A stretch of 20,482 nt of DNA from a virus. Positions within the stretch are counted from its first letter, which is position 1. Each line of letters begins with the position of its first letter. The translations under genes were made by a program, and so were the position numbers. Below are positions 1-19,776 of the stretch, piece by piece. The notes under the pieces are model-generated. The model saw only the letters and a program-made list of their open reading frames with translations, had not been told where the DNA came from and made no database searches. The stretch lies in the IMG/VR virus record IMGVR_UViG_3300030106_001689, positions 1 to 20,482 of that record, one strand, 5' to 3'.

Positions 1-57
1 ATCGAAAGAAAAGAAAGAAGAAACCTTATCCGCTACACCACAGAAAAAGTTTAGGTC

Positions 58-333
58 CTAAATCTTCTTGGAGAGGGTGTCTGAAGAAACGGAGAGGCCA
101 GGGATAGATTCCCCCGTTAATTGACAGTCAAAAATCCCCCCTGTAATAGAAGTTCCTTTCGGAAAAAGAGAAGCTGACCAAGACTTTAATGTGGAACTAT
201 TCTCATTAATATGTTTTTTGCAGCTTTCTTCTGTCTTAAACCGTAACTTTGAACCTTTATATTCGTCTACGGTAATGACAACGGGCCCGGGAAGTCCAAG
301 AACTCCTATGAGTACGACTATTACATAGAGCAT
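58..333 (-). CDS. Small membrane-anchored or exported protein, function unknown
   Basis: The family is not recognised. The 91-aa product opens with an uninterrupted hydrophobic stretch (about residues 2-21) with no basic residue before it, which looks like a membrane anchor or an uncleaved signal. The rest is polar and basic, with only two cysteines (about 38 and 70) that could form a disulfide outside the cytoplasm. The ATG at 333 is preceded by a GGAG Shine-Dalgarno 8 bases upstream and overlaps the last codons of the helix-turn-helix gene, so the two are probably co-translated. It is the last visible gene of the leftward early operon. A host-envelope or superinfection role would be a guess from position and topology only. 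Confidence 0.7.
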   Translation of the reverse strand: MLYVIVVLIGVLGLPGPVVITVDEYKGSKLRFKTEESCKKHINENSSTLKSWSASLFPKGTSITGGIFDCQLTGESIPGLSVSSDTLSKKI

Positions 334-551
334 TTGTTTTTCTCCACTTTAATAGCATCCAATTCATAACCCATAGCATGTAAAAGACTTTCGATCTTGT
401 AAATTGATGGCTCGAGAATCTTGCATCTTTCATAATTCTCAATTGTGCTAGAGCCAACACCAGATAAAGCAGAAAGTTCTGTGCGTGTTAAACCAGACTC
501 TCTTCTTATGTCAGATAATATCGTTGACCAGTGTTCCTTAGTCTCTAGCAT
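321..551 (-). CDS. XRE-family helix-turn-helix DNA-binding protein
   Basis: The 76-aa product is nearly all one Cro/CI-type helix-turn-helix domain. Residues 12-66 follow the family pattern: a first helix with IRRESGLTRTEL, a turn and recognition helix around GVGSSTIENYE (31-41), then helices ending in a typical LLHAMGYELD. This is the fold of phage repressors and of antitoxin-like regulators, and the protein would bind an operator as a dimer. An AAGGTG Shine-Dalgarno lies just before the ATG. It sits in the leftward operon downstream of the SNF2 helicase and overlaps the small membrane protein gene. The target is unknown; the divergent promoter region near 2459-2547 is the natural candidate. 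No dimerisation or RecA-cleavable domain is present, so it is Cro-like in size rather than CI-like. Confidence 0.8.
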   Translation of the reverse strand: MLETKEHWSTILSDIRRESGLTRTELSALSGVGSSTIENYERCKILEPSIYKIESLLHAMGYELDAIKVEKNKCSM

Positions 552-560
552 TTCACCTTA

Positions 561-821
561 TTAGTGCCGGGACATATCAGACGGATCTAAATCCTCCAAA
601 ATATCTTCGTAAGAAGAGTCGCTGTCCCCAGCCATAATTCCCATCGTTACAGTCGTAAGTCTACTCATTAAATGCATCACTTTCGGCAATCCTATTTCCG
701 CTGCGCCTGATTCTATGGCTACTCTAAAAAGAACCACAGATCTTGATGATGGCGATAGAGAGGTGTTTTCTTGGGTAACCTCTGAAACCCGGCGGTAGAA
801 ACTGTCTAAATCTCCGCTCAT
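561..821 (-). CDS. Hypothetical small early protein with acidic C-terminus
   Basis: This 86-aa product is not recognised. It is probably mostly helical, with a hydrophobic middle (about residues 27-60, including VVLFRVAIESGAAEIGLP) and a strongly acidic C-terminus (about residues 65-83, rich in D, E and S). There are no cysteines, no signal peptide and no clear motif. The start codon overlaps the stop of the upstream ribbon-helix-helix gene as ATGA, and the next gene begins 9 bases after its stop, so it is inside a translationally coupled early operon. Acidic early phage proteins sometimes act as inhibitors of host DNA-binding proteins, but nothing here shows that. Confidence 0.65.
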   Translation of the reverse strand: MSGDLDSFYRRVSEVTQENTSLSPSSRSVVLFRVAIESGAAEIGLPKVMHLMSRLTTVTMGIMAGDSDSSYEDILEDLDPSDMSRH

Positions 822-1003
822 GCGCTTGATCCCTCCCCATAAGTTAGGCGAAGTTCAGCGTCCGTGGGTGCATTTTGCGCTACTTCTACCAAAAAAGCAA
901 TCTGCTGGGCAGGTGACCGCTGATTCTTCTCCGCTAGTGTCAAAAGTTTTTCCCAAGCAGGAATTGGAACAGCAACACTCTTGTATCTTTTAATGTCTGG
1001 CAT
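818..1003 (-). CDS. Ribbon-helix-helix-like (Arc/CopG-type) small protein
   Basis: The 61-aa product has the layout of a ribbon-helix-helix DNA-binding protein. A short strand (KSVAVPIP, about residues 8-15) is followed by a helix beginning with AWEKLLTLAEKNQ, a turn at RSPAQQ, and a second helix AFLVEVAQ. Members of this fold pair their strands in a dimer to read the DNA major groove. A GGAG Shine-Dalgarno sits about 6 bases before the ATG and spans the end of the helicase gene, and its stop overlaps the next start (ATGA). With the XRE-type protein further down the operon, this gives two candidate regulators in one early transcript. The assignment rests on length and pattern only. Confidence 0.6.
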   Translation of the reverse strand: MPDIKRYKSVAVPIPAWEKLLTLAEKNQRSPAQQIAFLVEVAQNAPTDAELRLTYGEGSSA

Positions 1004-1012
1004 TTTACTCTC

Positions 1013-2458
1013 CTAGGTTAGCCATTGTTTAAGTTCCTCGCCCAGCACCGTGCTGGCGATATCCATTTTGTTCCGAAGAGCTTTGACAATCTTTTCATCA
1101 ATTGTTTTCTCCGAAATAAAATCAATGTAAGTAACGTGATCTGTTTGACCGATGCGGTGCGCTCGATCTTCCGACTGCATACGAACAGCTAGATCAAAGC
1201 TGTTTGCAAAATAAATAACAGTTGTTGCCGCAGTCAGAGTAATTCCGTAACCGCCTGTCTGTGGATTGCCTATAAAGAATCGAGCATTGCCATTCTGAAA
1301 TTTCTCAATGGCTTCCACCCTCTCCTCGTCAGTCGTATCTCCAAAGTAAGAAACGGTAGAACCTGGGCCGTGAGCCTTGGTCAGTGCTTCGGTAATGCGT
1401 TTCACATCGTATCTGAATCGTGACCAAATTATGGCTTTACCTTTAACTTCTTCTAAACAAGCCAGTAACTCTTTGATTCTATTATCATCTATCTCAACAA
1501 ACTCTCCGCTGTCTGATCTCACATGACCAGACAACACCTGTTGCATTCTCAGAAGCTGGGTCATGACGTTGTTTGCAGTCATGAACTCTTCGTCATCAAT
1601 GTGTGCAAGAGCGTATTCTTTTAATTCGTTATAGATACGGTTCTGGTCAGGTGTCAGTGCTATGTTTCTCTGCGTATAGATTTTTGCCGGCAGATCTAGG
1701 CACTCTTCTTTCGTAATTCGGCTCGAAAAATCTTTCAACATGGAGCCAAGTTGCTCGAGGTTACGGTATCCCACAACGCGGTTAAAAGAATGTGATCCAA
1801 CATGCTGCTTCTTCATCACAGCGTAGCGGTATTGGAACTGAAAGAAGTTATCTCCGCACTCTCCAAGAAGTTTCTTATCCAGGAATCTACATTGCGCCCA
1901 CAAATCCATCGGAGATTGCGTAACAGGAAATCCTGTCAGGATACGTCTGTAAGTGGCCAGTTCGCCTATCTTGATTAGAGCCTTGGTTCGCCCAGCTTTG
2001 GGAGATTTGATTGCGGTGGATTCGTCAACCGCCAACATCGCTTTGGAAGCCTTTAGAAGAGCCGTGAGATACTTCCGACCCTTGGGGGTAGATAGTGCCT
2101 CAACATTCATGACTAGCACTCTAAGAGCCTCTGAGGGCTTTAGGATGTCCTCTAAAAGTCTTTTCTCGGATTTGTTCGCACCAGACTTCCAAATGGCAAC
2201 AACCCGTTCGATGGTCTCGGGCATGTGTGCAGGAATCTCGAGGTTCGCCCAATTGCGGTAAACACCCTTGGGGGCTACTACAACAAAGGTATCAATCTTG
2301 CCCGTTTGAAAAAGCACAGAAGCGTTGTCAATACACACCTTTGACTTACCCGTTCCCATTTCCATAAGGTAAGCCCAATTGACTGCACTCCACGATTTAC
2401 GCAGAACATCATCTTGGTGTTTGTAAGGCTCGGTTTTATATTTGTATTTCATTTCCAT
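1013..2458 (-). CDS. SNF2-type superfamily 2 DNA helicase/translocase
   Basis: This 481-aa protein is an SF2 ATPase of the SNF2 class, which translocates on duplex DNA. Visible motifs, numbered from the ATG at 2458, are: a Q-motif-like YKHQ (about 12-15), Walker A MGTGKS (34-39), a DES box in place of DEAH (145-147), motif III LTGFP (174-178) and motif VI QSEDRAHRIGQ (428-438), whose arginines complete the ATP site. The RAHRIGQ signature is typical of SNF2 proteins. The open frame runs back to 2674, but that would put about 70 residues across the control region and the opposite gene, so the ATG at 2458 is preferred; a second ATG lies at 2452. No Shine-Dalgarno precedes either. In phages such enzymes are thought to help replication, recombination or the shift to late functions. 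It heads the leftward early operon. Confidence 0.9.
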   Translation of the reverse strand: MEMKYKYKTEPYKHQDDVLRKSWSAVNWAYLMEMGTGKSKVCIDNASVLFQTGKIDTFVVVAPKGVYRNWANLEIPAHMPETIERVVAIWKSGANKSEKRLLEDILKPSEALRVLVMNVEALSTPKGRKYLTALLKASKAMLAVDESTAIKSPKAGRTKALIKIGELATYRRILTGFPVTQSPMDLWAQCRFLDKKLLGECGDNFFQFQYRYAVMKKQHVGSHSFNRVVGYRNLEQLGSMLKDFSSRITKEECLDLPAKIYTQRNIALTPDQNRIYNELKEYALAHIDDEEFMTANNVMTQLLRMQQVLSGHVRSDSGEFVEIDDNRIKELLACLEEVKGKAIIWSRFRYDVKRITEALTKAHGPGSTVSYFGDTTDEERVEAIEKFQNGNARFFIGNPQTGGYGITLTAATTVIYFANSFDLAVRMQSEDRAHRIGQTDHVTYIDFISEKTIDEKIVKALRNKMDIASTVLGEELKQWLT

Positions 2459-2468
2459 CGTGCGTGGT

Positions 2469-2496
2469 AAATTAGCATAATTTTTTCCATTGTCAA
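2469..2496 (-). promoter_or_regulatory. Probable sigma70-like promoter for the leftward early operon
   Basis: On the minus strand there is a perfect TTGACA -35 box (2491-2496) and, 16 bases on, an extended -10 element TG-C-TAATTT (-10 hexamer at 2469-2474). Transcription should start near 2462, only a few bases before the helicase ATG at 2458, so the message would be leaderless or nearly so. Placement is from the sequence; activity is inferred. Confidence 0.55.
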
Positions 2497-2540
2497 AGAT
2501 AATTTTTTGTGATAGAAGGGAAAAGTTAGAAAGTGAGGAA
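2490..2540 (+). promoter_or_regulatory. Rightward control region: weak promoter candidate and strong ribosome binding site
   Basis: A TTGTCA -35-like box (2490-2495) almost completely overlaps the leftward -35 box. A poor -10 match (around GATAGA or TAGAAG, 2511-2518) follows. The GAGGAA Shine-Dalgarno at 2535-2540 is 7 bases before the ATG at 2548. The ribosome binding site is convincing. The promoter is tentative, and the rightward operon may instead depend on an activator or a phage polymerase. Confidence 0.35.
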
Positions 2541-2547
2541 GTAATAA

Positions 2548-2901
2548 ATGGCTGTATTCGTAACACAAGAGAATCCCCGGGTTGATATCGTATCGGCTCA
2601 CAAGTGGGGAGACCTCGAACCTTTAGCATCACCTTTTGATCAAGTTCATTTGAATCCCGGAAGAATTGTGGCATCTATTCGTCGCAAGCTTAAAGGATTT
2701 AATGACGATGATTGGCTGTTGGCTATGGGGGATCCAGCCATCATAGGCATTGCTTTTGCTGTTGCCTCATCTGTAAACCATGGCCGCGTGAATTTGTTGA
2801 AGTGGGATAAGATTGAGAAATCTTATTACCCAGTGAAGATTAATCTGCGTGGTGGTGGCATTGAGAACTTAAACCCTGACGAGGAGATACGTTATGACTA
2901 G
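2548..2901 (+). CDS. Hypothetical protein, first gene of the replication operon
   Basis: This 117-aa product has no recognised family. The sequence is soluble and mixed alpha/beta, with a basic helix around IVASIRRKLKGFNDDDW (about residues 46-62) and a hydrophobic segment around DPAIIGIAFAVASSVNHGRVNLLKWD (about 70-95) that is too interrupted to be a membrane span. A strong GAGGAA Shine-Dalgarno lies 7 bases upstream of the ATG. The last 8 bases overlap the next gene, whose own Shine-Dalgarno is inside this one. Its place at the head of an operon of replication enzymes suggests an early DNA-metabolism or regulatory role, which is inference from context. Confidence 0.8.
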   Translation: MAVFVTQENPRVDIVSAHKWGDLEPLASPFDQVHLNPGRIVASIRRKLKGFNDDDWLLAMGDPAIIGIAFAVASSVNHGRVNLLKWDKIEKSYYPVKINLRGGGIENLNPDEEIRYD

Positions 2902-3469
2902 CACCGCAGAAGACGTTTGGGACATTATCCAAGCTGATGCTTCTGCCTTCGAGGGACTGACAACTGAGGGTGGTGGCGAATTGAGTCAATTGATTCGCAC
3001 GGTATCTGAAGTCAATCAGTCACTGAGCAAGGCAGAGGAGACTGTTAAATCTTTGAAACGTAGTCGTGATCGATATCTTTACGATCTCATTCCAGCAAAG
3101 TTGGCGGAGATGGGAATCGATAAGGTAGAGGTTGATGGGAACAAGGTGTCCTTACGGACGTTTGTTTCCGGGACTATGCCGAAAGATCCAATACAACGAG
3201 AAAATGCTTTCGCACATTTACGAGAGATTGGAGCGGGTGACTTCATTAAGAACGATGTGAGTGTGTCGTTTGGAGTTACGCAGGACAATTCTGCGAAATC
3301 GTTGCAAGTGGAACTTGAGGAGAAGGGGTTCGACACATCAGCCAAGACTTGGGTAGAGCCTATGACGTTAAAAAAATTGATTCGTGAACGAGTAGAAGCG
3401 AACCAAGAAATAGACCTTGAAATGTTTAACGCACACGTTGGACAAGTAGCCAAGATAGAAGGAGTATGA
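2894..3469 (+). CDS. Coiled-coil early phage protein, possibly Gp157-like
   Basis: The 191-aa product has an N-terminal helical part (about residues 30-75) with heptad-like spacing, followed by a part with short strands (VEVDGNKVSLRTFVSG, about 79-94). After that come two alpha/beta segments ending in a predicted C-terminal helix (TLKKLIRERVEANQE). A coiled coil leading into a small beta domain resembles phage Gp157-like proteins, which are found beside ssDNA-binding and recombination genes. The likeness is one of layout, not a confirmed motif match. It lies directly upstream of the putative ssDNA-binding protein, 3 bases from stop to start, with GAGGAG 7 bases before its own ATG. A helper of ssDNA metabolism is the most economical guess. 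Confidence 0.75.
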   Translation: MTSTAEDVWDIIQADASAFEGLTTEGGGELSQLIRTVSEVNQSLSKAEETVKSLKRSRDRYLYDLIPAKLAEMGIDKVEVDGNKVSLRTFVSGTMPKDPIQRENAFAHLREIGAGDFIKNDVSVSFGVTQDNSAKSLQVELEEKGFDTSAKTWVEPMTLKKLIRERVEANQEIDLEMFNAHVGQVAKIEGV

Positions 3470-3472
3470 ACC

Positions 3473-4240
3473 ATGGCTAAAACAAATGGAAAACTACCAG
3501 CAGAACTCACCGCCGCATTTGAAGCAGATTCGGGGATGGGTCTAGAAGATGTATCAACAACAGATATGCAGATACCTTTTCTGCGTATCATTCAAGCATT
3601 GAGCCCTCAGTTAAAGAAAAGCGATCCAGCTTTCATTGAGGGGGCTTCACAAGGGGATATATTTAATACCGTTACCAATAAGACATGGGCAGCTGAAGAT
3701 GGTGTTTCTGTCTTGCCCGTGCATTTTATCCAGAAGATGTTGGAGTTTGTTCCAAGATCAGCGGGTGGTGGTTTCGTTGGCGAACTGTCTGCTGACAGCA
3801 ATGAGGTTCGCCAAGCTGTTCGAGATCAGGATACCGGCATGGAAGTTCTGCCAAACGGTAATGAACTTGTTCGCACAGCCCAGCACTACATCAAGATTGT
3901 GCATGAGGATGGTTCTCTTGAAAGTGCTATTCTGGACATGAAAAAGACACAGTTGAAGGTGTCTCGCAAATGGAACACGCTGATTGCCATGCAGAAGCAT
4001 AATGGCAACACGCTTCCGAGTTTTGCCAAGACTTATACGCTTAGATCGATTGAGGACGGAAACGACAAGGGTAGTTGGTATTCCTGGTCTATCGAAGTTG
4101 GCGATATGGTTAAGAGTCTTGAAGCTTATAACGATTGCAAGGAGCTTCACAGTAGCATTCGGAAAGGGGAGTTGCAGATTGCTCCGCCCCCATCTGATAT
4201 GGTGCTGGAAGATCAGTCCTCTCAAGAAGTGCCGTTCTAG
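3473..4240 (+). CDS. Putative single-stranded-DNA-binding protein
   Basis: The 255-aa product probably coats ssDNA during phage replication. The body, about residues 30-225, is rich in beta-forming and aromatic stretches, such as DGVSVLPVHFIQKMLEFVPR and GSWYSWSIEVGDM. It is followed by a disordered tail (about 228-255) that turns acidic and ends in QEVPF. An acidic tail closing in an aromatic residue is the recruiting element of bacterial SSB (which ends in IPF) and of T7 gp2.5. No classic OB-fold motif can be confirmed by eye, so the function rests on the tail, the size and the position between early genes and the primase. AAGGAG lies 8 bases before the ATG. A strong terminator follows 10 bases after the stop. 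Confidence 0.65.
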   Translation: MAKTNGKLPAELTAAFEADSGMGLEDVSTTDMQIPFLRIIQALSPQLKKSDPAFIEGASQGDIFNTVTNKTWAAEDGVSVLPVHFIQKMLEFVPRSAGGGFVGELSADSNEVRQAVRDQDTGMEVLPNGNELVRTAQHYIKIVHEDGSLESAILDMKKTQLKVSRKWNTLIAMQKHNGNTLPSFAKTYTLRSIEDGNDKGSWYSWSIEVGDMVKSLEAYNDCKELHSSIRKGELQIAPPPSDMVLEDQSSQEVPF

Positions 4241-4250
4241 GAAGGACTGC

Positions 4251-4284
4251 GCCCCCCTCGTCTGCACACGAGGGGGGCTCTTTT
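4251..4284 (+). terminator. Strong intrinsic terminator/attenuator between SSB-like and primase genes
   Basis: An 11-bp perfect GC-rich stem (arms 4251-4261 and 4268-4278) with a 6-base loop is followed by TCTTTT. It lies 10 bases after the SSB-like stop and 9 bases before the primase ATG at 4288. The 3' arm contains the only purine-rich stretch (GAGGGGGG, 4270-4277) that could serve as primase Shine-Dalgarno, so the hairpin should limit both read-through and primase translation. That dual role is inferred. Confidence 0.85.
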
Positions 4285-4287
4285 CTG

Positions 4288-5823
4288 ATGGAGAATGTAG
4301 CAGAAAGATTCCTTCAATTATTTGAAGGCTATGGTAAAGCCCACGGACAGACCGCTGTTCTGGATCGTGCTAGACACGGTAAAAAGCAAGCGAACTATAA
4401 AATTGTCCATGAGCCGTTGACCTTGCAACTCGTTCAGAATCATCTGGACGGGAAACTTGGTGTCGGGTCGATACCAATTGATGAAACAAGTCGATGCTCG
4501 TTTGGAGCATTAGATATAGATGATTACAACCTAGACCTCACCGCTCTTCTAGCGAAGGTCAAGAGATTTAAGCTACCTCTGATTATGTGTCGCTCAAAGT
4601 CGGGCGGGGCTCACCTGTTTCTTTTTCTGTCGGAGAAAATAGCAGCCGCCGAAGTGCGCGACAGATTAGCTGAGTTTGCTTCCGTTCTAGGCTGGGGTAA
4701 CTGTGAGATATTCCCCAAGCAAGAAGAAGTTCGAGCGGACAGAGGGGATGTCGGTAACTTTATAAACCTTCCTTACCAGAACGCAAAGCATACAACGAGG
4801 TATGCTCTCAAGGATGATGGAGACAGTCTTACTCTAGAAGAGTTTCTGTCCCTAGCTGAAAGTCTGTGCGTCACGGGTGCGGAACTGGCTTCAATTAAAC
4901 TTGGTTCACAAGATACGGTTCTGCCAGATGGACCACCTTGTTGCCAGCAGTTAACCGAGTTTGGAATACCAGAGGGGGGTCGTAACATGACTCTTCTCAA
5001 CGTGGGGATCTACTATCGGAAGTTTGCTCCCAACGATTGGAAAGAACTTCTGGAAAAGCACAACAGAGAACACTGCACTCCTCCTTTACCTGCCAGAGAG
5101 ATAGTGATTATCCAAGAGCAGTTGGAAAAGAAGGAGTATGCCTACACCTGCAAACAGGAACCCTTGCAAAGTCACTGCAACAAGAGTCTGTGCCGAAGTC
5201 GAAAGTTTGGGATTGGGTTTCATAACTCCCATCCAGTGGTGGGTGGTCTTACCGTTGTAGAGTCGGAGCCTCCTGTCTGGTTTGTAAACGTGGATGGATC
5301 AAGGCTCGAACTATCTACTAAACAGCTACAGATGCAGGTTGAGTTCCAGAGAGCTTGCATGGAACAGATGTATAAGATGCCAGCCAAGATGAAAGAGGGT
5401 GATTGGCGGGACCTAATAGATACGCTTTTGGAAGATGCAACACGCATATCTGTCCCGGAAGAGTTAACGCAGAAGGGTCTGTTTGTGGAACTGGTCGAAG
5501 CGTTTTGCACTTCTCGCATAGCGGCTCATAGCCCAGAGGAACTTTTGACAGGCAAGCCGTGGACAGAAGAGGGGCTGACTTACTTCAAGCTAAGTGCTTT
5601 GCAGGAGTTTTTGAAGCGTAATGGGTTTACGCAATACACTCGTGGTCAGATTACAGAGCGTCTTAAAGAAATGAACGAGGGCGTTGAAGCGGACAAGACG
5701 TATCGCTTCAAGGACAATCAGGACAGGTGGAAGTCTGTCCGTGTTTGGTTTGTGCCAGAGATGAACCGTGGAGAAGTAGACCTTCCAGATGTCACTTTTG
5801 AACCAGAGGATCCGCCTTTCTGA
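4288..5823 (+). CDS. Archaeo-eukaryotic-type (AEP) DNA primase
   Basis: This 511-aa protein makes primers for phage replication. The AEP catalytic core is visible: metal-binding ALDIDD (D76, D78), the nucleotide-binding SKSGGAHLFLF (103-113, with H109) and a downstream NFINLPY (157-163). These are followed by PPCC (216-219), a GRNMTLLNVGIYYRKF helix (231-246) and a cysteine cluster YTC..HC...C (C288, C297, C302). The layout matches AEP catalytic domains joined to a C-terminal PriCT-like helical module, as in TOTE-type and viral primases. The last residues, PEDPPF, resemble an SSB C-terminal peptide. The ATG at 4288 has its only Shine-Dalgarno within the terminator hairpin. The stop overlaps the helicase start as TGATG, which suggests the two are made together and may form a complex. 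Confidence 0.85.
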   Translation: MENVAERFLQLFEGYGKAHGQTAVLDRARHGKKQANYKIVHEPLTLQLVQNHLDGKLGVGSIPIDETSRCSFGALDIDDYNLDLTALLAKVKRFKLPLIMCRSKSGGAHLFLFLSEKIAAAEVRDRLAEFASVLGWGNCEIFPKQEEVRADRGDVGNFINLPYQNAKHTTRYALKDDGDSLTLEEFLSLAESLCVTGAELASIKLGSQDTVLPDGPPCCQQLTEFGIPEGGRNMTLLNVGIYYRKFAPNDWKELLEKHNREHCTPPLPAREIVIIQEQLEKKEYAYTCKQEPLQSHCNKSLCRSRKFGIGFHNSHPVVGGLTVVESEPPVWFVNVDGSRLELSTKQLQMQVEFQRACMEQMYKMPAKMKEGDWRDLIDTLLEDATRISVPEELTQKGLFVELVEAFCTSRIAAHSPEELLTGKPWTEEGLTYFKLSALQEFLKRNGFTQYTRGQITERLKEMNEGVEADKTYRFKDNQDRWKSVRVWFVPEMNRGEVDLPDVTFEPEDPPF

Positions 5824-7346
5824 TGCAGTGCGAAACAATACTTGGACCCCCAGGAACGGGGAAGACGCAGACTAACTCTAACCGAGTTAGGGATTGCATC
5901 GAGGAAGGAATAGATCCTGACCGGATAGCATGTGTTTCTTTTACTCGCAAAGCCGCGAGGGAAAGCCGAGAGCGGGTTGGAAGAGATTGGGGCATAGACG
6001 AAAAAGATTTGCCCTTCTTCCAGACGTTACATTCCATGGCTTACAGGGCGGGGGGTTACAGTCCTGATGATGTTATGGGACCTAAAGATATGAAAGCCGT
6101 TGGAGACGCAACAGGCATTGTCTTTGGTTCCAAGAACTCAAACGTAGAAACAGATTTTGATACCTTGGGAGTTTCCAAGGGCGATAGTTACATGAACCTT
6201 TACCATTTGTCTCGCAGTAAGGGTATTCCCATGGAGGAAATGTATCGTCTTCAAGGGGACTACAAGGTTGACTTTGCGGAACTCACTCATCTTGTGAAGG
6301 CTTACGAGAACTACAAGCAGGTCTACAAGAAGATAGATTTTACAGACATGATTGAAGAGTTTATTGCCTCGGATGTCTGCCCTGACATTGAAGCATTGTT
6401 TGTGGACGAGGCACAGGATCTGTCTACCCTTCAGTGGTCAATGGTCGATGTATTGAGAAAGAATCCTCGTATACAAGTCTTCACGGGTGATGACGATCAA
6501 GCCATCATGAATTTTCAAGGGGCGGATGTTCGAGCCTTTCTAAACGCAACAGAAAAGAAAACTGTACTAAATCAGTCCTATAGAGTTCCGGGCTCAGTGT
6601 GGGAACACGCACAGTCTATTGTTAATCGGATAAACAACAGGGCTCCAAAGGATTGGTATCCTCAAGATCACGAGGGTAGCGTCCGTTATCATCAAAGTTT
6701 GTGGGACGTTCCCTTACAGGAAGGGGAGTGGTGTCTCATGGCTCGAACCAACAGAATTGCTTCCTATTACGCTTCGGAGTTACGGGCAGAGGGATGGGTT
6801 TACAGTCGCAATGGTCACCCCAGCATCCCGGCTAAAACTTACGAAGCTATTATGGATTGGGAGTCTTGGTGCAAGGGAACACCTTTAGAGCCAACCAAGA
6901 TCAGGAATATATACACTTTTATGAAGGTTGGAGAGGGATACGAAAGAGGCTATGGTCCAAGGTCAAGGAACCTTTTAAGCATGGACGAGGAAGAGTCCTA
7001 CACCATGGATTACGCCAAAGAGAATTTAGGGCTATGCGTCAATGAGTCCATAAGATGGCATAGAGTGCTTGGAAAGATTGACCTTGAGACAAAGAACTAT
7101 ATTCTTAACGCCCTGAAGAGAGGGGACAATGTAAGGAACCCTCGTATCAAAGTGAGTACGATACATTCAATGAAGGGGGGAGAAGCCGACAATATAATTG
7201 TGGTTCCAGACCTGTCGTATGCGGCTCATAGAGAGTATCAGAAAAACCCAGCTACGGAGCATAGAGTCTTCTATGTGGCCGTAACGAGGGCGAAGCAGTC
7301 CCTTCATGTGCTTTACCCGCAGACAGATAGGAACTACGTGCTATGA
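5823..7346 (+). CDS. UvrD/Rep-type superfamily 1 DNA helicase
   Basis: This 507-aa SF1A helicase should unwind DNA 3' to 5' using ATP. All the motifs are present and in order: Walker A GPPGTGKT (8-15), motif Ia SFTRKAA (39-45), Walker B VDEAQD (194-199), motif III GDDDQAI (222-228), motif IV NQSYRVP (250-256), motif V VSTIHSMKGGEAD (444-456) and motif VI VFYVAVTRAK (482-491). At about 507 residues it is shorter than UvrD or Rep (about 670-720), with reduced accessory subdomains. Translation is coupled to the primase by a TGATG overlap and to the next gene by ATGA. With no DnaB-like gene in the operon, it may be the replicative helicase, although a repair or recombination role is equally normal for the family. 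Confidence 0.93.
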   Translation: MQCETILGPPGTGKTQTNSNRVRDCIEEGIDPDRIACVSFTRKAARESRERVGRDWGIDEKDLPFFQTLHSMAYRAGGYSPDDVMGPKDMKAVGDATGIVFGSKNSNVETDFDTLGVSKGDSYMNLYHLSRSKGIPMEEMYRLQGDYKVDFAELTHLVKAYENYKQVYKKIDFTDMIEEFIASDVCPDIEALFVDEAQDLSTLQWSMVDVLRKNPRIQVFTGDDDQAIMNFQGADVRAFLNATEKKTVLNQSYRVPGSVWEHAQSIVNRINNRAPKDWYPQDHEGSVRYHQSLWDVPLQEGEWCLMARTNRIASYYASELRAEGWVYSRNGHPSIPAKTYEAIMDWESWCKGTPLEPTKIRNIYTFMKVGEGYERGYGPRSRNLLSMDEEESYTMDYAKENLGLCVNESIRWHRVLGKIDLETKNYILNALKRGDNVRNPRIKVSTIHSMKGGEADNIIVVPDLSYAAHREYQKNPATEHRVFYVAVTRAKQSLHVLYPQTDRNYVL

Positions 7347-7609
7347 AAAAACCAGAGGATATATTGACAGAAGCCGCAGAATTGGTTGGGGGGGAGAGAG
7401 CCCGTCAACATGGTGATTATGTGACACAACATAAAAGGGTTGCTGATTTGTGGAGTGCGTATTTGAATTGTTCTGTGACCGCATCTGATGTTGCTTTTTG
7501 CATGGTGCTTTTGAAAGTTGCTCGAGATGAAGTGGGATCACCAAACCCAGATGATGGGGTTGACGCATCTGCGTATACCGCGCTATGGGCAGCACTAACG
7601 AATGCGTGA
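7343..7609 (+). CDS. DUF6378-like small phage protein
   Basis: The 88-aa product matches from memory the pattern of DUF6378, a domain found in many phages: ERARQHGDY near residue 18, then a helix with RVADLWSAYL, then SDVAFCMVLLKVARDE, a D/N-rich loop and a final YTALWAAL helix. Its function is not established. The all-helical pattern with conserved His/Asp resembles small nucleotide-pyrophosphatase-like folds, but I see no full catalytic set and would not assign the activity. It is wedged between the helicase (ATGA overlap) and the polymerase (8-base overlap), so it is made together with the replication enzymes. Confidence 0.8.
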   Translation: MKKPEDILTEAAELVGGERARQHGDYVTQHKRVADLWSAYLNCSVTASDVAFCMVLLKVARDEVGSPNPDDGVDASAYTALWAALTNA

Positions 7610-9530
7610 AGATTTATTTGATGAGAAGGTCTGGTCTCCTCCAGATCATTTACCTGATCTATCGGGCGAGAAACTTATCGCTGTAGACGTTGAGACCAAG
7701 GATCCTCATCTCAGAGACTTGGGGCCAGGATGGGCGCGGGGGGACGGTAAGCTTATAGGTATTGCTGTCGCTGCCCCCGGTTGGAAGGCTTATTTGCCGA
7801 TTGGCCACGAAGGTGGCGGAAACATGGCGAAAAGTCTTGTGACCGGCTGGCTCCAAGACCAACTTGACCACGGCATGTCTGTGGTGTTTCATAACGCTCA
7901 GTATGATTTAGGATGGCTTTTGTCAGAAGGAATTGAGGTCAAAGGTGCTATTCTTGACACTATGGTCGCCGCTCCGTTACTGGACGAAAACAGGTTTAGT
8001 TACTCCCTTAACGCGCTGGGTTCGACGTATCTGGGCGAAAAGAAAAAAGAAGAAGAACTGAAGCGGGCAGCAGATCAGCATGGCGTTAATGCTAAAGCTG
8101 AGATGTGGAAACTGCCTGCCGAGAGGGTAGCTCTATACGCAGAGGGTGATGCCGATTTAACTCTTCGATTGTGGGATGTTCTTTACAAGAAGTTGCAAGA
8201 GGATAACTGTAAGGATATCCTAAAAATGGAGCTTTCCCTGCTTCCTCTTGTTTTTGAAATGAGGAAGAGAGGCGTTAGAGTAGATCTGGACAAGGCAGAG
8301 AAAACCAAGTCCTATCTTCTATCGAGAGAAAAAGACATCCTCAAGGAACTCCATGACGAAACGGGAGTTCACATTGAACCATGGAATGCAAAAAGTTTGG
8401 CGGCAGCGTTTGACAGCCTTGGTCTGTCCTATGACCGGACTCCCAAATCTGATGCCCCCAGCTTTACCAAGCATTTCCTGAAGACCCATGAGCATTCTGT
8501 CGCAAAGAAAATCCTGGAGGTCAGGGAATACAACAAGGCTAATACGACTTTCGTTGATACGATTCTTAATCATCAGCACAATGGTCGCATCCACTGCCAG
8601 TTTAATCAGTTGCGCTCGGATGAAGGTGGAACTGTGTCAGGACGATTTTCATCAAGCCATCCTAATTTACAGCAAGTTCCCTCTCGGCATCCAGAAATCA
8701 AGAAACTCATTCGAGGTCTCTTTTTGCCAGAAGAAGGATGCCAGTGGGGAAGCTTTGACTACAGTTCCCAAGAACCAAGATGGTTGATGCATTACGCTTC
8801 CCTGGCTCCAGCTACTCGCGATAATGAACGTGTTCAAGAGATCGTCAGTCAGTATCAGGAATCAGATGTAGATTTCCATCAGATTATGGCCGACATAGCG
8901 GGTGTAGACCGATACCAAGCCAAGATTATTAACCTAGGAACCATGTATGGTATGGGCATTGGTAAGCTGGCACAGACCCTTGGTGACATACCTTTTGAAG
9001 AAGCCAAGGCTATTCGAGCGGAATACGATGAGAAGGTTCCATTTATAAGAGCCCTTGCGTCTTCTGTTATGGATGCGGCATCCAAACGCTGTGAGGTGAG
9101 AACTTTGCTGGGCCGTAAGTGCAGATTTCCAATGAGGGAGCCAAAGGGTTTTTCTCGTAAGGCAAAGACAATCATTCATGCCGAGAGGCTTGAGGAACAA
9201 TGGAAAGAACTATTGGACACTCCGCTTGAGGAAAGACCATCTAATTGGGCTGAGAAGAATCCTCAAAACTATCAGGTTGCGTTTGTATACAAGGCACTTA
9301 ACAGACTGATACAAGCTTCCGCAGCGGATCAAACCAAGAAAGCCATGCAAGACTGCATAGACCATGGTTATTGGCCCATGCTTACGGTTCATGACGAGTT
9401 ATGTTTTTCGATAGAGGGCAAAGATCAGGTGACCGAGATCAAGGGTCTTATGGAGAACTGCGTCTCAGACATGAAGATACCGTCCAAGATTGATGTGGGT
9501 CTAGGAGACAATTGGGGTTCAGCTAAGTGA
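7602..9530 (+). CDS. polA: Family A DNA polymerase (Pol I type) with 3'-5' exonuclease
   Basis: The 642-aa polymerase copies the phage genome and proofreads. The exonuclease domain keeps ExoI VDVE (D29, E31), ExoII HNAQYD (D102) and ExoIII YAEGDAD (Y179, D183). The polymerase domain carries GRFSSSHPNLQQVPSR (347-362), motif A FDYSSQEPR (D386), motif B with R437, K441, L445 and Y449, and motif C TVHDE (D598, E599). There is no 5' nuclease domain, as is usual in phages. Aligning motif B with E. coli Pol I (R754, K758, F762, Y766) puts Leu445 at position 762, a variant linked to slower or temperate replication. It is the last gene of the plus-strand operon; its stop lies 1 base from the stop of the opposing gene. 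The Shine-Dalgarno is weak, so expression probably relies on the 8-base overlap with the gene before. Confidence 0.95.
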   Translation: MREDLFDEKVWSPPDHLPDLSGEKLIAVDVETKDPHLRDLGPGWARGDGKLIGIAVAAPGWKAYLPIGHEGGGNMAKSLVTGWLQDQLDHGMSVVFHNAQYDLGWLLSEGIEVKGAILDTMVAAPLLDENRFSYSLNALGSTYLGEKKKEEELKRAADQHGVNAKAEMWKLPAERVALYAEGDADLTLRLWDVLYKKLQEDNCKDILKMELSLLPLVFEMRKRGVRVDLDKAEKTKSYLLSREKDILKELHDETGVHIEPWNAKSLAAAFDSLGLSYDRTPKSDAPSFTKHFLKTHEHSVAKKILEVREYNKANTTFVDTILNHQHNGRIHCQFNQLRSDEGGTVSGRFSSSHPNLQQVPSRHPEIKKLIRGLFLPEEGCQWGSFDYSSQEPRWLMHYASLAPATRDNERVQEIVSQYQESDVDFHQIMADIAGVDRYQAKIINLGTMYGMGIGKLAQTLGDIPFEEAKAIRAEYDEKVPFIRALASSVMDAASKRCEVRTLLGRKCRFPMREPKGFSRKAKTIIHAERLEEQWKELLDTPLEERPSNWAEKNPQNYQVAFVYKALNRLIQASAADQTKKAMQDCIDHGYWPMLTVHDELCFSIEGKDQVTEIKGLMENCVSDMKIPSKIDVGLGDNWGSAK

Positions 9531-9531
9531 T

Positions 9532-10173
9532 TTAAAAATTAATTCTGTAACCTATGCGTGCGCTACTTTCGTCTGGTCTTCCTTCGTTAAGTGATCTTTG
9601 CCCAGACAACGAAAGAATACCTGGTCCAACAGGGGTTTCTACAGATCCTGAAAAATTACGGTCAGACAAGTTAGGTTCAAAATATTGAAAATTAACTGTG
9701 GGGGCGTTGTTTTCAAACATACCTCTTAGAATTTGTCCTTGACCGCCTATCCCTCTGCGTCGGTTTGTATCAACGATGCTTTCTCCGAAGGGAGTGGTAA
9801 CCTCCTGTCTTGACCGACCATACGAAACATTGACTCGTTTTGGTCGTAAAACATCTTCCATAAACTTAGGCAAAACTCCTCTAGGCAAGTGAGCCGCTAT
9901 CCCAACATTGTAAGAAGTTTCGTCTATTTCTAAATTTTGTACGGGAGTTCCCTTTTCAGACATAAATCGCACAAACTCTGAAGGCATTCCTAAAGCTTCA
10001 GGAGTTCTTTCGGAAGATCCTGAAAAGTAATCTCCTGAAAAAGTAAAGGGTCCTACGGATAAACCTTCTTCTGGAGTTCGGATACGAAATTGAGATTCTC
10101 TAACTCCGTCTTGATTCGAAGTTCTGTAACCTCCTAAATTTTCGTAAGGGTATTGTCTATCAGCAGAATCCAT
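9532..10173 (-). CDS. Beta-rich protein with outer-membrane-like C-terminus, function unknown
   Basis: This 213-aa product is not recognised. It is rich in Gly, Ser, Arg and Asn, with short alternating polar/hydrophobic segments typical of beta strands. Examples are GPFTFSGDYFSG, SYNVGIAAHLP, VNVSYGRSRQEV, TVNFQYFEPN and ILSLSGQRSL. It ends in RIGYRINF, with alternating Y, I and terminal Phe as in C-terminal strands of bacterial outer-membrane barrels. There is no signal peptide. The ATG at 10173 is chosen because GGGAGG lies about 9 bases upstream and TAATG couples it to the zinc-ribbon gene; an in-frame TTG at 10197 is weaker. It is the final gene of the late operon, after the lysis gene, so a virion fibre-like or envelope role is possible but unproven. 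Confidence 0.75.
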   Translation of the reverse strand: MDSADRQYPYENLGGYRTSNQDGVRESQFRIRTPEEGLSVGPFTFSGDYFSGSSERTPEALGMPSEFVRFMSEKGTPVQNLEIDETSYNVGIAAHLPRGVLPKFMEDVLRPKRVNVSYGRSRQEVTTPFGESIVDTNRRRGIGGQGQILRGMFENNAPTVNFQYFEPNLSDRNFSGSVETPVGPGILSLSGQRSLNEGRPDESSARIGYRINF

Positions 10174-10343
10174 TACAGCGGTCCTCCCTGACAACAATCT
10201 CCGTCAGTCACACACTTGCAATCGACACACTGGTAGTGTCCATGGACAAAGACCTTTGGTTTGTCACACCCACAGCTAGGACAACGGGGACCAAGTCCTT
10301 CCGTCGAACCGTTTTGATTCTTTTCTGTTTCGTTCTCCGACAT
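10173..10343 (-). CDS. 56-aa cysteine-rich zinc-ribbon protein
   Basis: The small product begins with an acidic/Asn-rich N-terminus (MSENETEKNQNG) and then carries eight cysteines. Two knuckles, CPSCGC (C21, C24, C26) and CVDCKC (C39, C42, C44), are 14 residues apart, and a CC pair (50-51) is near the end. This is a zinc-ribbon pattern. ATG at 10343 is the only usual start in this frame downstream of an in-frame stop. The Shine-Dalgarno is weak. The first 68 bases overlap the end of the endolysin gene in another frame. The stop overlaps the next start as TAATG, the coupling used elsewhere in this operon, which supports it being real. The role is unknown: a virion or host-interaction accessory, or a regulator. 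Confidence 0.72.
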   Translation of the reverse strand: MSENETEKNQNGSTEGLGPRCPSCGCDKPKVFVHGHYQCVDCKCVTDGDCCQGGPL

Positions 10344-10725
10344 AACTACAATGTACCCATCCTGAGTCCGGTATGCTTTCTTTGTAAAATTCTAAAAGCA
10401 ATTGGTCGTAGTCCAAATGCTCCTTTATCCATAGCGCGAGTTCCATGTTGGGAACTCCAGGTATTTCAAAATCAACAGCTTGCCCCGTTATGTGCTGGGA
10501 CTTGCTTGAAGAACCAACGGCCTTGTTTAAATCAAAACATCTGAAACCGCTCGAGGGCGTAAAGGGAATGCCGTAATGTTCCCGGACAGGTTCCAGTATG
10601 TTTTCGCACAAGGTCTTGAGGTTCTCTATTTCACCATCGTTTGGTGTGTTTTTAATTCCCTTTCGTTCTGCTGTTTGTGATCTTGTTAATTCCTTTAGAG
10701 AAAAGTGTGTCGAAAGGCGTGTCAT
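10276..10725 (-). CDS. M15-type peptidase endolysin
   Basis: The 149-aa product is a peptidase of the M15 (D-Ala-D-Ala carboxypeptidase-like, M15_3) type, cutting peptide stems of peptidoglycan to release phage. It shows a substrate-binding SSGFRC (58-63, R62), the zinc motif SQHITGQAVD (H78, D85) and the third ligand in WVHC (H125). The length is right for a single catalytic domain; there is no separate wall-binding domain, signal peptide or membrane anchor, so a holin outside this window, or not recognised here, would be needed. The ATG overlaps the stop of the 1134-aa gene as ATGA. Position at the end of the late operon fits a lysis gene. A virion-associated role in entry is the alternative. 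Confidence 0.9.
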   Translation of the reverse strand: MTRLSTHFSLKELTRSQTAERKGIKNTPNDGEIENLKTLCENILEPVREHYGIPFTPSSGFRCFDLNKAVGSSSKSQHITGQAVDFEIPGVPNMELALWIKEHLDYDQLLLEFYKESIPDSGWVHCSYVGERNRKESKRFDGRTWSPLS

Positions 10726-13700
10726 TGTGTTGGCTGAACCCCTAACAGTTTATTCATTTCTTGTTGCCTCAAAACTTGTCCCGCTTCATTAACTTGATTT
10801 TGTAGTGGAGGCGCAGCGGTTTGAATTTCAGTTACAGCTTGATCAATAAAAGGACGAGCTATGTCTCTAGCTTGACCAACGGCTCTGGATACACTTTCTC
10901 TTGCTTCGGAATCCATACCGGAAGCTAACGGCATGGATACTCCCAAGAATCTTGCTTCTCGTGCCAAAGCCTCCCTAATTGTCATAGAAGCTAATCCTAA
11001 TTCGCCTTTAATACCTATACCAAATTCATTTCGAGCTTGAGACATTGCTTGGGATCTAGAAAGAGTTCGACCTTCTCGTGCGGCATTTCTCTGAAGATCA
11101 TCTGCTATAATATTTAATCCTCTTTTTGCATCCCTAGCTCTTATGGATGGTTTAGTCATCCAAAGCAAAAATTGTTTGTTCCGCATTATTCTTGCAGAGG
11201 CCAACATAGCAGCAGCACCACCTAATGTTGCTACGGGGTTTATGAGTAAGGATACCCCAAAAGCTGCCGCGTAAGTTGCTGCGGCTAAACCGCCCTTTCC
11301 TTTTAGGGAAGCGTCTCCCACCCTAGTGGCCGCTTCTGATACTTCTTGCAGTCCCTTAACAACATCTTTTCCTAAAATTTCATCCAAAGAACCTCTAGCA
11401 TTCATTTTTTTAATAGTTGATGCCATGGTCTTTCCGAAAGCACCTGACTGAACAGCATCGGCTGTTATACCTTCAGGAAAAGCTTCCATCATAATTTTAA
11501 GCATTGCTTGGTCTTGCAGACCCCCAGGAGTATTAAAAACATCCTCCCCAACTCTGTTTTTTAAAGCCTTTACAAGACTTGGATTTTTAACAGATTCAAG
11601 TATCAAGTCTTCTGCGTTTTCAATACGACCAGACCTAACTGCTTTAAATAAAGCATCGCGGCTTTGTTCCGAAGCTATTTTTAAATCTGATTGCAGAGTT
11701 TCAACAACAGTTTTTATGTTAGGGTTACTGATGTCGTTCAGAACAACTCGTCCCCATTCATCCCCAGAATTTTTAACCAAATAAAAATCTTTTAGAGTTT
11801 CACGCATCTGACCGGCTCTTTGAGAACCGAACAGTAAGTCTTGGGTTTCTTTTCCCAAGTCGTCAAATTTTTGAGCAAACTGTTCTGGCCTAAATACACG
11901 ACTTACTTTTGATTCTGCTGCTGCGTTTTGCACCCAAGCAGCGGCTAACATATCTCTATTGATATCTCTTTTTGCAGCAGATCCTGTTCGAGCCAAAGCG
12001 TCATCTGCATATTGATCAAGTGTCTCGCCCAGTTGATCTAAAATACGTTTTCTATAAGCATCCCCAGCGGGTAAATCTTTTAACCAAGGTTGAACACGGA
12101 CAATTATGTCATCTGGAATATCGTTAGCCACTAATATTCTGTTTAATCCGTCTATGTCTCCCGCACGGGCGGCTTGAGCAGCTTGGCCCCAAACTTCTGG
12201 CTTGATCTGCTGTATCTTTCCAGCCGTAGAAGAACTTGGTGTTACACGTGCTAAGTGAGCCCTGAGAAGTTCGGGTCTGTTATTCTTAACAACTGTTTGA
12301 GCAACATCTATGAGATCCTCAAAAAATCCTTCTTTTACGTTTTTGTTAAGCATGTTGGCAGCGCCCGTTTTAAATATCTCAGCGCCATCAGTGTAATGTT
12401 TATTGGCTTCCACCAACTTTTCTAAACCTTCTCTCTGTAACTGCGTTACCTCAGAAGATTCTCTTGAAGCAAACCTTCCGCCTTCTCCTCGAATATTTAT
12501 TCCTCCCCCAAAAGCAGGTTGACCTGTAGCTACATCCTTGGCCAACGACCTAGCTTTCATTTCAAACATCTCATCAATTTGATCTTTAAGTTGTTTAATT
12601 TGAAAATCAGCGGCTGTTCCGACAAGATCAGGAGACTTTCCCTGCGCTCCTAAAACGTGACGCAAAGAATTTAATTCGGATAACGTAAAGTCATCTGTTT
12701 TTTTCATTACATAATTTAATAAAGGAGCATCGGACATTTGCCCCATTTGAGCTTCTGTACTATCTAAAATATCTTTAACAGCCTTTTGAATAGGCGCTCT
12801 GTCAAATCGGACGTTGCCCAATAATTCTTCTGCGTTCCTATACAGAACAGAAGAATCTTGTTGCCAAAGACGAACAGTCTGTCCCATGGCTCCTGTCCAA
12901 TCTTTAGATTGCCTGCTCCCTGGTGCAAAAGCATTAAGAAGAATGTCCATTTCGCCATCTATTGTCATTCTAAGATGGCGATCCGCAAGACGCACGGCTT
13001 CGTCAGGATCTTTCATAGCGTTCTGGATAACACGAGTGATTTCACTAGCGTTTTCTTGCATCGCTGTCTTGAACTGTTTTTCTGTCAAATTCCCTTTAAA
13101 ATACTGTTGCCAAAGACCCTCAATGTAATCTCTGTTTCTAGAGGCCGCTTTCGTGCTTCCAAAAATTCCTTCGTAAACAGCTTGAAGTCGAGCAGCAATA
13201 GGTTTCCCAGTAGCTTCGTATATACTGGGTCGTCCGCCTGCTCGGATGTCTCCTCGAATTTGTGCGCGAGCTTTTTGAGTAGCTATTTTTGTGGCCAATC
13301 CTTTGGGGACACCTTCGGAAACCAATTTAGAAATATAAGAAGGATCTGGTTTGCCAGGACCTTTAAGCAATCTTCGAGCCAATCTAAAACCTGTTCCTAC
13401 AACAAGTTCACCACCCGCTCCGAAAAGAGCTTCGGTTGCGACATCTCCCCAAACTTCTTGGTTTGTTTGATCCTGTATTCCTCTAAATTCTTCTTCAACA
13501 AATTCATCGAAGATTTTACCCCCACCAGCCGCAGCACCCATTATTAAAACAGAAAGTGGAAGGCCAACTCCTGTTGTTGCAAAAGCAGCCGCAGTTGTAG
13601 CGGCTATTGGTCCTTGATGAGCCCCAAAAACTCCAACAACATCGGAAAAATCAAATAAACCTAAAAAGTCTCCTCCGGGGCGATTAAGATACATCGTTCC

Positions 13701-14126: not shown

Positions 14127-14128
14127 AG

Positions 14129-19289: not shown

Positions 19290-19609
19290 CAGGAAATCTC
19301 CAGCACGCTTGCGAAGGCATAAATCTTCGACGCTGTGTCACAATTAAGTATGAGCGTATCACTGGCCTCAAGAACAAAAGGTCCAGCGAGAAACGTATCT
19401 GCGAGAGTTCCGATACTAGCTTTCTCTAGCGTAACAGTAACCGATGCGGAACTATCGGTAATCTTCGGGTACACTACTATAGTGCCTGAATGACTATTAT
19501 AAAGATTTATATTCTTTATTATCGCTTCTGTCGCGGTTGGACAGGTATAAATTGTGACATCCCCTGTCGAACCCACTAAAGTTGCTATATTTTTGTACGC
19601 TGAAGCCAT
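19289..19609 (-). CDS. Small beta-rich structural protein
   Basis: The 106-aa product is a string of beta-forming segments: DVTIYTCP, KNINLYNS, GTIVVYPKI, SVTVTLEK, FVLEASDTLILNC and KIYAFASVLEI. It looks like a compact beta sandwich, as often seen in phage tail, fibre or decoration proteins. Two cysteines (23 and 90) are present. I prefer the ATG at 19609, which follows the upstream stop as TAATG; a TTG at 19624 would add five residues inside the upstream gene. There is no good Shine-Dalgarno, so translation probably depends on reinitiation from the 55-aa gene. Similar small proteins sit next to tail genes in marine phages, but I cannot name the family. Confidence 0.8.
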   Translation of the reverse strand: MASAYKNIATLVGSTGDVTIYTCPTATEAIIKNINLYNSHSGTIVVYPKITDSSASVTVTLEKASIGTLADTFLAGPFVLEASDTLILNCDTASKIYAFASVLEIS

Positions 19610-19776
19610 TAATCCATAAACCAACTTTTGCCATTATCATCATCTTCACCGCTAACCACCGCAGGAAAATCTATTTTTGTTAAAGCCATCTCTAAATCAC
19701 GTAAAATACGCACAAAAGTGTCCGCATCGTATTGATCAGGAGCCATGGGCATTGAATGGTCAAGCAATTTAGCCAT
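19609..19776 (-). CDS. Small hypothetical structural-operon protein
   Basis: This 55-aa product is unrecognised. A mostly helical middle (ADTFVRILRDLEMALTKIDF, about 18-37) is followed by an acidic GEDDDNG loop and a short hydrophobic end (SWFMD). An AGGAG Shine-Dalgarno immediately precedes the ATG at 19776, which overlaps the stop of the tail gene (TAATG), and its own stop overlaps the next start the same way. The longer frame from 19827 would run 51 bases into the tail gene without a ribosome site, so the short form is preferred. It could be a small assembly adaptor, but nothing beyond position supports that. Confidence 0.7.
   Translation of the reverse strand: MAKLLDHSMPMAPDQYDADTFVRILRDLEMALTKIDFPAVVSGEDDDNGKSWFMD

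Follow-up and report, generated by a model that had tools for sequence, protein, structure and literature searches.

A hairpin close behind the gp34 stop codon of a phage replication operon: a conserved candidate intercistronic terminator

Introduction

Riboswitch-type terminators can, in addition to their main task, sequester a Shine-Dalgarno (SD) sequence. A different type of control is found in the autoregulation of T4 gp32, where the control element lies at the 5′ end of the message.

Translation can also act on an intrinsic terminator. In the part of the tR2 study drawn on here, the phage lambda terminator tR2 was almost fully repressed at a short distance from a translated stop codon, with series that begin at 8 and 9 bp (PMC4824070). 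At a distance of 5 bp from the stop, termination efficiency (TE) was below 10%, down from about 90%, and uncoupling of translation abolished the repression (Li et al., 2015, PMC4824070). The effect depends on sequence, the TE being about 0.8 at 18 bp in one series and 0.12 at 17 bp in the other, and the repression data in this part of the paper are for tR2 in Escherichia coli only (PMC4824070).

The locus considered here is in a 20,482-nt virus record of IMG/VR. This whole stretch, termed the window, carries a strong hairpin between a gp34-like gene and a primase gene.

The hairpin and its gene neighbourhood

A plus-strand block at 2548-9530 encodes proteins resembling gp32, gp33 and gp34 of Pam3, followed by a primase, a helicase, a DUF6378 protein and a polymerase. 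The features from gp34 onwards are:

3473..4240, plus strand: gp34-like gene (Pam3_Gp34 / phrog_2402), TAG stop at 4238-4240, C-terminus EVPF
4241..4250, plus strand: spacer of 10 nt from the gp34 stop to the hairpin (from sequence)
4251..4261, plus strand: hairpin 5′ arm GCCCCCCTCGT, C-rich (from sequence, fold and covariation)
4262..4267, plus strand: hairpin loop CTGCAC (from sequence)
4268..4278, plus strand: hairpin 3′ arm ACGAGGGGGGC, G-rich, with the SD-like GAGGGGGG at 4270-4277
4279..4287, plus strand: U-rich linker TCTTTTCTG, 9 nt, without SD core; putative terminator tail and the only free primase leader
4288..5823, plus strand: AEP-type primase gene, start ATG 4288-4290
5823-7346, plus strand: UvrD-like helicase, overlapping downstream gene
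7343-7609, plus strand: DUF6378 gene, overlapping downstream gene
7602-9530, plus strand: family A DNA polymerase, overlapping downstream gene

The gp34 stop and the primase ATG are 47 nt apart, a distance taken up by the 10-nt spacer, the hairpin (4251-4278) and the 9-nt linker. A first-pass annotation of the sequence had described a perfect 11-bp stem with a T-rich tail between an SSB-like and a primase gene. This is confirmed: 4251-4261 pairs with 4268-4278, TCTTTTCTG follows, all 11 pairs are Watson-Crick and nine of them are GC. The terminator anatomy claimed at the same time also holds, with a GC-rich stem, a T-tract and a score of +16.2 by a formula of the d'Aubenton-Carafa type. The U-tract is directly behind the stem, where five of the first six positions of the linker are T, and is present on the plus strand only. 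A bidirectional terminator was considered and rejected, as the minus strand has no T-tract.

Folding of the RNA and its stability had been proposed as a check; positions 4230-4310 fold with -36.7 kcal/mol (z -3.9), and none of 200 shuffles was as good. When both strands were scanned in 36-nt segments at a step of 3, the best folds were the hairpin on the plus strand (-25.1) and its minus-strand mirror (-26.7), followed by a next-best site at -17.1. No fold elsewhere in the window comes within about 8 kcal/mol of the hairpin, which is also the sole 11-pair entry among 22 terminator-like sites in positions 1-20000, a total that is itself at chance level (19.5, sd 5.0). The window has no Rfam match at gathering score, STAXI included, and no alternative antiterminator fold or aptamer was seen in its gp34-primase gap.

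Because the genes from the primase on overlap, the ATG at 4288 is the entry for all of the downstream genes. No sigma-70-like site was detected between 3664 and 4288 in a consensus scan, and by this crude measure the primase therefore depends on read-through. A later primase start codon was rejected, because alignments to the 80 relatives listed mostly begin at residue 1. A frameshift or readthrough fusion of gp34 and primase was also rejected, since gap lengths occur in all three phases. At the other end of the block (9530-9532), the polymerase gene on the plus strand converges with the first ORF of a minus-strand block across a gap of 1 nt, and a scan of the window revealed no terminator-like site beside this convergence point.

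The predicted model of gp34 has a mean pLDDT of 75. Its best structural alignment (Z 8.3) is to a chain of a phiC31 integrase-RDF fusion structure (9teh_I), and it aligns with the T4 and RB69 gp32 cores at Z 6.2 and 6.1, values that the aligner warns can be common. Foldseek matches to the model were weak (best E 2.8e-3) and had RPA-type chains among the high-ranking ones, and the gp34 profile has no credible sequence match in the PDB (best E 0.7). At the C-terminus, P254 and F255 are invariant, 31/31 aligned gp34 members ending in Pro-Phe; among named homologues 17/23 end in F, five of these in PF. A Pro-Phe C-terminal tip is a feature of SSB tails. With OB-fold matches of modest score and a C-terminus ending in PF, the earlier label 'SSB-like' is reasonable, and the model suggests that gp34 is probably an OB-fold ssDNA-binding protein.

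Conservation in the window clade

At the DNA level, 3473-5823 had no match in the phage collection, and protein-level searches were therefore used. Searches with primase and gp34 yielded 146 loci, the window's own (L001) included, and 135 of these carry both genes. The 135 two-gene loci reduce to 61 distinct gp34-primase gap sequences, with primase identities of 65-100%. The BUCT555 protein as query gave 6 loci, and a rescan with A1, judged by eye, returned mostly contigs already in the set. The group names 'win', 'DSL', 'R5C' and 'BUCT' denote the best BLAST query only; named phages account for 13 of the 79 'DSL' rows and one of the 73 'win' rows. Related sequences enter all counts as separate items.

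A GC-rich hairpin with seven or more pairs is present in all 61 distinct window-clade gaps, the window included. The sequence of the stem is entirely different across the clade, ranging from C-rich then G-rich arms near the window to GGGACCCGC/GCGGGTCCC types further away. The best 36-nt fold behind gp34 is at or below -15 kcal/mol in 72/73 window-group rows (71/72 without the named phage Bhz59), and among 500 sampled ends of mechanically defined control ORFs, 54 pass -15 and 134 pass -12. The only miss at -15 in the window group, L056, has an earlier stop, and the usual hairpin lies further on.

Compensatory changes in relatives, which the first-pass annotation had suggested looking for, are present. 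Among 13 distinct sequences of equal geometry, 7/11 pairs change on both sides, 143/143 pair cells are standard pairs and the covariation score was reached by 0/500 shuffles. This alignment (A2) holds 13 of 18 sequences that had been preselected for at least 10 of the 11 pairs, and this selection accounts in part for its full pairing, though not for the two-sided changes. Left out were three rows with a duplicate hairpin, and L054 and L062, which have 10/11 pairs and other stems.

The gp34-primase gap of L050 and L051 (67 nt) is of a different appearance, in that the 3′ arm, linker and ATG look duplicated. Two 3′ arms could here compete for one 5′ arm, with two start codons after them.

The position of the hairpin is narrowly set. 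Clade stems begin 6-13 nt behind the stop, and the distance is 11 nt or less in 57/61 gaps. Loops among the 61 gaps include six UUCG (three closed by C-G) and six GNRA, sequences that favour an element acting at the RNA level. Paired changes would also be produced by a palindrome in DNA, and a site between ssDNA-binding and primase genes could suit an origin hairpin or a protein-binding palindrome. Such a DNA element is judged highly improbable in view of the UUCG and GNRA loops in 12/61 gaps, the T-tract on one strand only, the narrow distance to the stop codon, and the replacement of the hairpin in a sister clade by what looks like an RNA module.

The hairpin as an element of the gp34 3′ end

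The 26 named phages were the analyst's choice among the records that matched gp34 (503) or primase (25). A gp34 homologue is present in 24/26, with listed identities to the window protein of about 25-37%. The hairpin behind gp34 passes -12 kcal/mol in 22/24 and -15 in 19/24. The next gene is a primase in DSL-LC04, 023Pt, R5C, Pan1, R26L and HTVC027P, an endonuclease in K300, a Dda-like helicase in Bhz59 and M6, an SSB in VP2 and Bm1, a ligase in Gekk3-15, a deaminase in DMU1 and an Rz-like gene in WFC; it has no named function in JG024 and others. Where another gene precedes the primase (JeffCo, VLCpiS6a, Kokobel2), inspection by eye found no such hairpin directly before it. As the hairpin follows gp34 whatever comes next, and was not seen before these primases that gp34 does not precede, it is the gp34 3′ end that forms the conserved unit.

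Relatives that keep the gene order and lack the stem had been named at the outset as evidence against a role for the hairpin. HTVC023P, with a gap of 5 nt and a miss at -12, is a case of this kind. The record ct3Et533 (L149) has only a weak hairpin (-10.6 kcal/mol), counted as a miss at -12, and its gp34-like ORF is 90 nt before the primase. This plus-strand ORF, at 2499-3410 of L149, lies under an annotated minus-strand hypothetical gene (2727-3476), which is probably a mis-annotation.

A terminator at the gp34 3′ end is annotated in the GenBank records of DMU1, on the other strand, and WFC. The predicted-terminator table, as seen in the consulted part of the JG024 paper, has no entry for the hairpin behind the JG024 gp34 homologue.

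Termination and ribosome gating

The terminator score is above 0 in 33/61 window-clade gaps and at or below 0 in 28/61. At least four T are present in the first 8 nt behind the stem in 53/61 gaps, and the linkers are 59% T. The stem is kept with a weak T-tract in L067, L040, L020 and L072, among others. Because 28/61 gaps score at or below 0 and some relatives have a weak T-tract, the stem may matter beyond termination.

A processing and protection hairpin, for which puf-type operons offer a precedent, could account for those members of the clade in which the stem persists despite a weak T-tract. Read-through RNA would be cut in the U-rich linker, and the stem would shield the gp34 message from 3′-5′ decay. 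The tails of the loop-E RNAs described below also fit, with C at position 3 in 111/116 and T at positions 5-7 in 53-63/116 among the matches listed. As 53/61 window-clade gaps nevertheless have the run of T expected behind a terminator, and there is no indication of a cleavage site, we consider processing a rather unlikely primary role.

For a hairpin that terminates, the stop codon nearby is of consequence. Since the stem starts only 10 nt behind the gp34 stop, ribosome gating of read-through is expected. Leakage through the terminator should be proportional to coupled gp34 translation, which would provide the downstream genes with transcripts. The proximity of the stop codon, and the repression of the terminator that translating ribosomes should bring about, were absent from the first-pass annotation. 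In the named phages the stem lies a median of 18 nt behind the stop, and because it is within 11 nt in only 5/21, ribosome gating is not general. A literature search for transcript maps found no Pbunavirus or Yuavirus map with terminators by title, and no RNA data for these phages.

The primase start

The first-pass annotation held that the 3′ arm contains the only plausible SD sequence of the primase. In the window the SD-like run GAGGGGGG is in the arm and there is none in the linker; the GAGG of GAGGGGGG is 14 nt from the primase ATG, which is long for a Shine-Dalgarno sequence. Across the clade, an SD 4-mer is present in only 16/61 3′ arms.

A translational lock could be envisaged, in which the stem hides the primase ribosome-binding site (RBS) and is opened only by the ribosome at the gp34 stop, termination being incidental. 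Several findings are consistent with it. An SD core (AGGA, GGAG or GAGG) outside the hairpin occurs in 0/61 linkers vs 44/51 gp34 starts. The primase start is a median of 9 nt behind the stem in the 61 gaps, and the unpaired probability at -18..-10 is 0.08 at the 61 primase starts vs 0.67 at 51 gp34 starts. The 3′ arm is G-rich in 40/57 distinct window-group hairpins (10 even, 7 C-rich) and in 6/31 DSL-like, 5/21 named and 1/5 R5C-group hairpins; Fisher p is 6e-6 against the DSL-like and 6e-4 against the named phages, relatedness being ignored. When arms were swapped in silico (n=59), pairing to the anti-SD became weaker in 21 and stronger in 6, the rest being equal.

Other observations speak against it. 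Besides the low count of SD 4-mers in the arms, G-rich 3′ arms do not persist through the clade: with falling primase identity they number 12/12, 11/26 (74-85% identity) and 14/15. Arm polarity follows clades, so that few independent events are represented, and it does not simply follow SD absence. The sister-clade primase starts, taken as the 45 found with GAGAA upstream, have an SD core in 0/45 and mostly C-rich 3′ arms; because they too are without an SD core, the lock is less favoured. The hairpin also persists in phages whose next start does have an SD-like 4-mer, for example R5C, Pan1, VP2 and ZP6. Such a 4-mer (AAGG counted) is found at -18..-4 of the next start in 15/22 named phages; that of HTVC027P is inside the hairpin. 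The T-rich linkers, for their part, suit a terminator. We regard the lock as an unlikely explanation of the element.

Given the SD 4-mer in 16/61 arms and the sister starts without SD core, masking of the RBS is not the shared role of the hairpin; it is plausible as a second effect. Of the earlier proposal that the hairpin lowers primase translation, the part that is supported is that the start lies in the shadow of the hairpin; for the idea that holding the primase SD is the purpose of the stem, support is at most partial.

Some sister loci (L284, L288, L302) have CTTT..GAGAAAG just before the primase start, which could form a small second hairpin.

A second form with a loop-E motif

The window hairpin is of a simple form, and a GAA/GUA loop is found in 0/73 rows of its group. 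In the DSL-LC04-like sister group (66 rows, named phages excluded), 35/66 rows have a stem with a GAA/GUA bulged-G (loop-E) loop. In the same 66 rows, 30 pass -15 kcal/mol, 3 meet both rules and four neither; of the last (L304, L306, L307, L333), three look like variants by eye. The false rate of the loop-E rule is 0.4% in shuffles and 0/349 at other ORF ends. GAA and GTA are demanded by the rule, and their invariance is by construction. Outside the rule, flanking A residues are present in 30/32 and 28/32. The motif reads GGGG-GAAAGCGGAU...GCAGCGAGUA-CCCC with a variable upper helix, and the outer stems vary (GGGG/CCCC, GGCC/GGCC, GGGAC/GTCCC, GGGCCC/GGGCCC).

The motif is found at gp34-primase junctions in L263, L264, L268, L269, L272, L274, L281, L312 and L330, and mostly behind other genes in the loop-E loci L345-L466. 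A longer version, GGGGAAAGCGGAT...GCAGCGAGTACCCC, is present as an exact pattern in at least 120 stretches of viral contigs, and in a collection of 84,980 genomes in only 2 stretches, both in metagenome-assembled genomes. Among the matches listed, a set of 122 loci (116 distinct) was formed, 6/122 being gp34-primase junctions. In this set of listed matches an ORF stop precedes the motif in 105/116 distinct loci (110 with more than 200 nt upstream), at a median distance of 8 nt (5-95%, 6-14), and the upper helix has at least 4 pairs in 90/106 distinct copies vs 19% of shuffles. A relaxed rule gave 69 distinct copies in 3.35 Mb of loci and 0 in reversed sequence, with 57/69 copies 4-8 nt behind a stop; the 3.35 Mb contain overlapping loci and loci fetched by the motif itself.

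The upstream proteins of the matches listed (94, each of at least 70 amino acids) form 26 BLAST clusters. They include gp34 (6), Enc34-type ssDNA-binding protein (5) and DUF669 (5), together with several overlapping PHROG SSB families of 5-7 members each. Among these listed matches, a PF ending is found in 24/94 proteins vs 21/1288 background ORFs, the PF cases stemming from four clusters, and an acidic tail in 43/94 vs 79/1288. The largest cluster among the matches listed has 19 members, all acidic-tailed and without named function. Because many upstream proteins do not resemble SSBs, and spurious ones are possible among the short ORFs, the link between loop-E and SSB is an enrichment and not a rule.

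In 11 sister-clade loci the only Rfam match for loop-E was a chance microRNA hit (E 2). A blastn search of one copy against the phage collection gave partial matches only, 0/149 records covering 80% of it. No paper describing the motif was found by title or abstract, and it may lie in published candidate lists. In L348, L358 and L448, the sequence before loop-E ends like a second copy (GTAGGCCCCACCTTT or AAGTCCCCCCACC..TTT), which suggests tandem copies.

Proposed role

Anatomy, conservation, covariation, the link to the gp34 3′ end and the SD-less linker are computed or observed. The hairpin is real and conserved, and is most likely an intercistronic terminator, an element of a largely familiar kind. 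For the fuller reading the balance tips slightly in favour: that it is a leaky intercistronic terminator in a replication operon, gated by ribosomes and masking the primase RBS in read-through RNA.

Termination, ribosome gating, RNA protection and translational masking are the activities that we infer, and they could operate as follows. Part of the transcripts would end at about 4279-4287, carrying gp34 and the preceding genes with a protected 3′ end, and the remaining transcripts would continue into the primase, helicase and polymerase genes. With a ribosome completing gp34 shortly behind RNA polymerase, the hairpin would be kept from closing; read-through would then rise with gp34 translation and drop when little gp34 is translated. 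Once refolded in read-through RNA, the hairpin would cover the primase ribosome-binding region and lower primase translation further. The net effect would be much ssDNA-binding protein and little primase and polymerase.

A wider hypothesis, put forward tentatively and in our estimate possible but on the doubtful side, is that a structured RNA, in a simple or a loop-E form and about 5-10 nt from the stop, serves phages as a mark of the 3′ ends of SSB genes, and that they so tie replication-gene output to SSB translation. The RNA would be placed near the mRNA entry of the terminating ribosome, and many uncultured phages would employ the loop-E form, behind genes that are unrelated to one another but above all SSB-like.

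Distinctive of the element are its narrow place behind the stop in the window clade, its tie to an SSB-like gene across many phages, and the fact that the sister clade has in its place an RNA without a match in the Rfam searches made. If the proposal is correct, the balance between ssDNA-binding protein on one side and primase, helicase and polymerase on the other is set, in a large group of phages, by one short stem, and the replication genes are tied to translation of the SSB message. It would also be a natural and conserved case of ribosome-repressed termination, known from the built reporters in the part of the work of Li et al. considered here (PMC4824070). The loop-E form that takes the place of the hairpin suggests a phage RNA that is common, without Rfam match in the loci searched and possibly with a partner.

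Comparison with known systems

The window hairpin resembles known intercistronic intrinsic terminators in its GC-rich 11-bp stem, its T-rich tail and its position between what is probably a bulk product and enzymes needed in low amount. It differs in that the stem is 10 nt after a stop codon, the start codon is 9 nt after the stem and no SD core lies between them; termination itself is here a prediction. With riboswitch-type terminators it would share the use of one stem for both tasks; the window gap differs in that no antiterminator fold or aptamer was seen and the SD is partly conserved.

The protein product invites comparison with T4 gp32-type proteins, since the gp34 model aligns with the T4 and RB69 gp32 cores (Z 6.2 and 6.1), although the top match is the 9teh chain (Z 8.3) and no credible PDB sequence match exists. 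Control of the T4 gp32 message is at the 5′ end, whereas the gp34 element is at the 3′ end. The STAXI motif is likewise a structured RNA near SSB and other DNA-handling genes; it is a repeated pseudoknot according to the part of its description used here (Weinberg, 2010, PMC2864571), and no Rfam match was found in the window or, beyond chance, in 11 loop-E loci.

The closest parallel is ribosome-repressed tR2, together with the pyrBI attenuator cited in the same source, in which, as far as the consulted part describes, the terminator is also within about 10 nt of the upstream stop (PMC4824070). That arrangement was built by Li et al. (PMC4824070), whereas the window's is natural and conserved, and a corresponding effect of the ribosome would be expected here.
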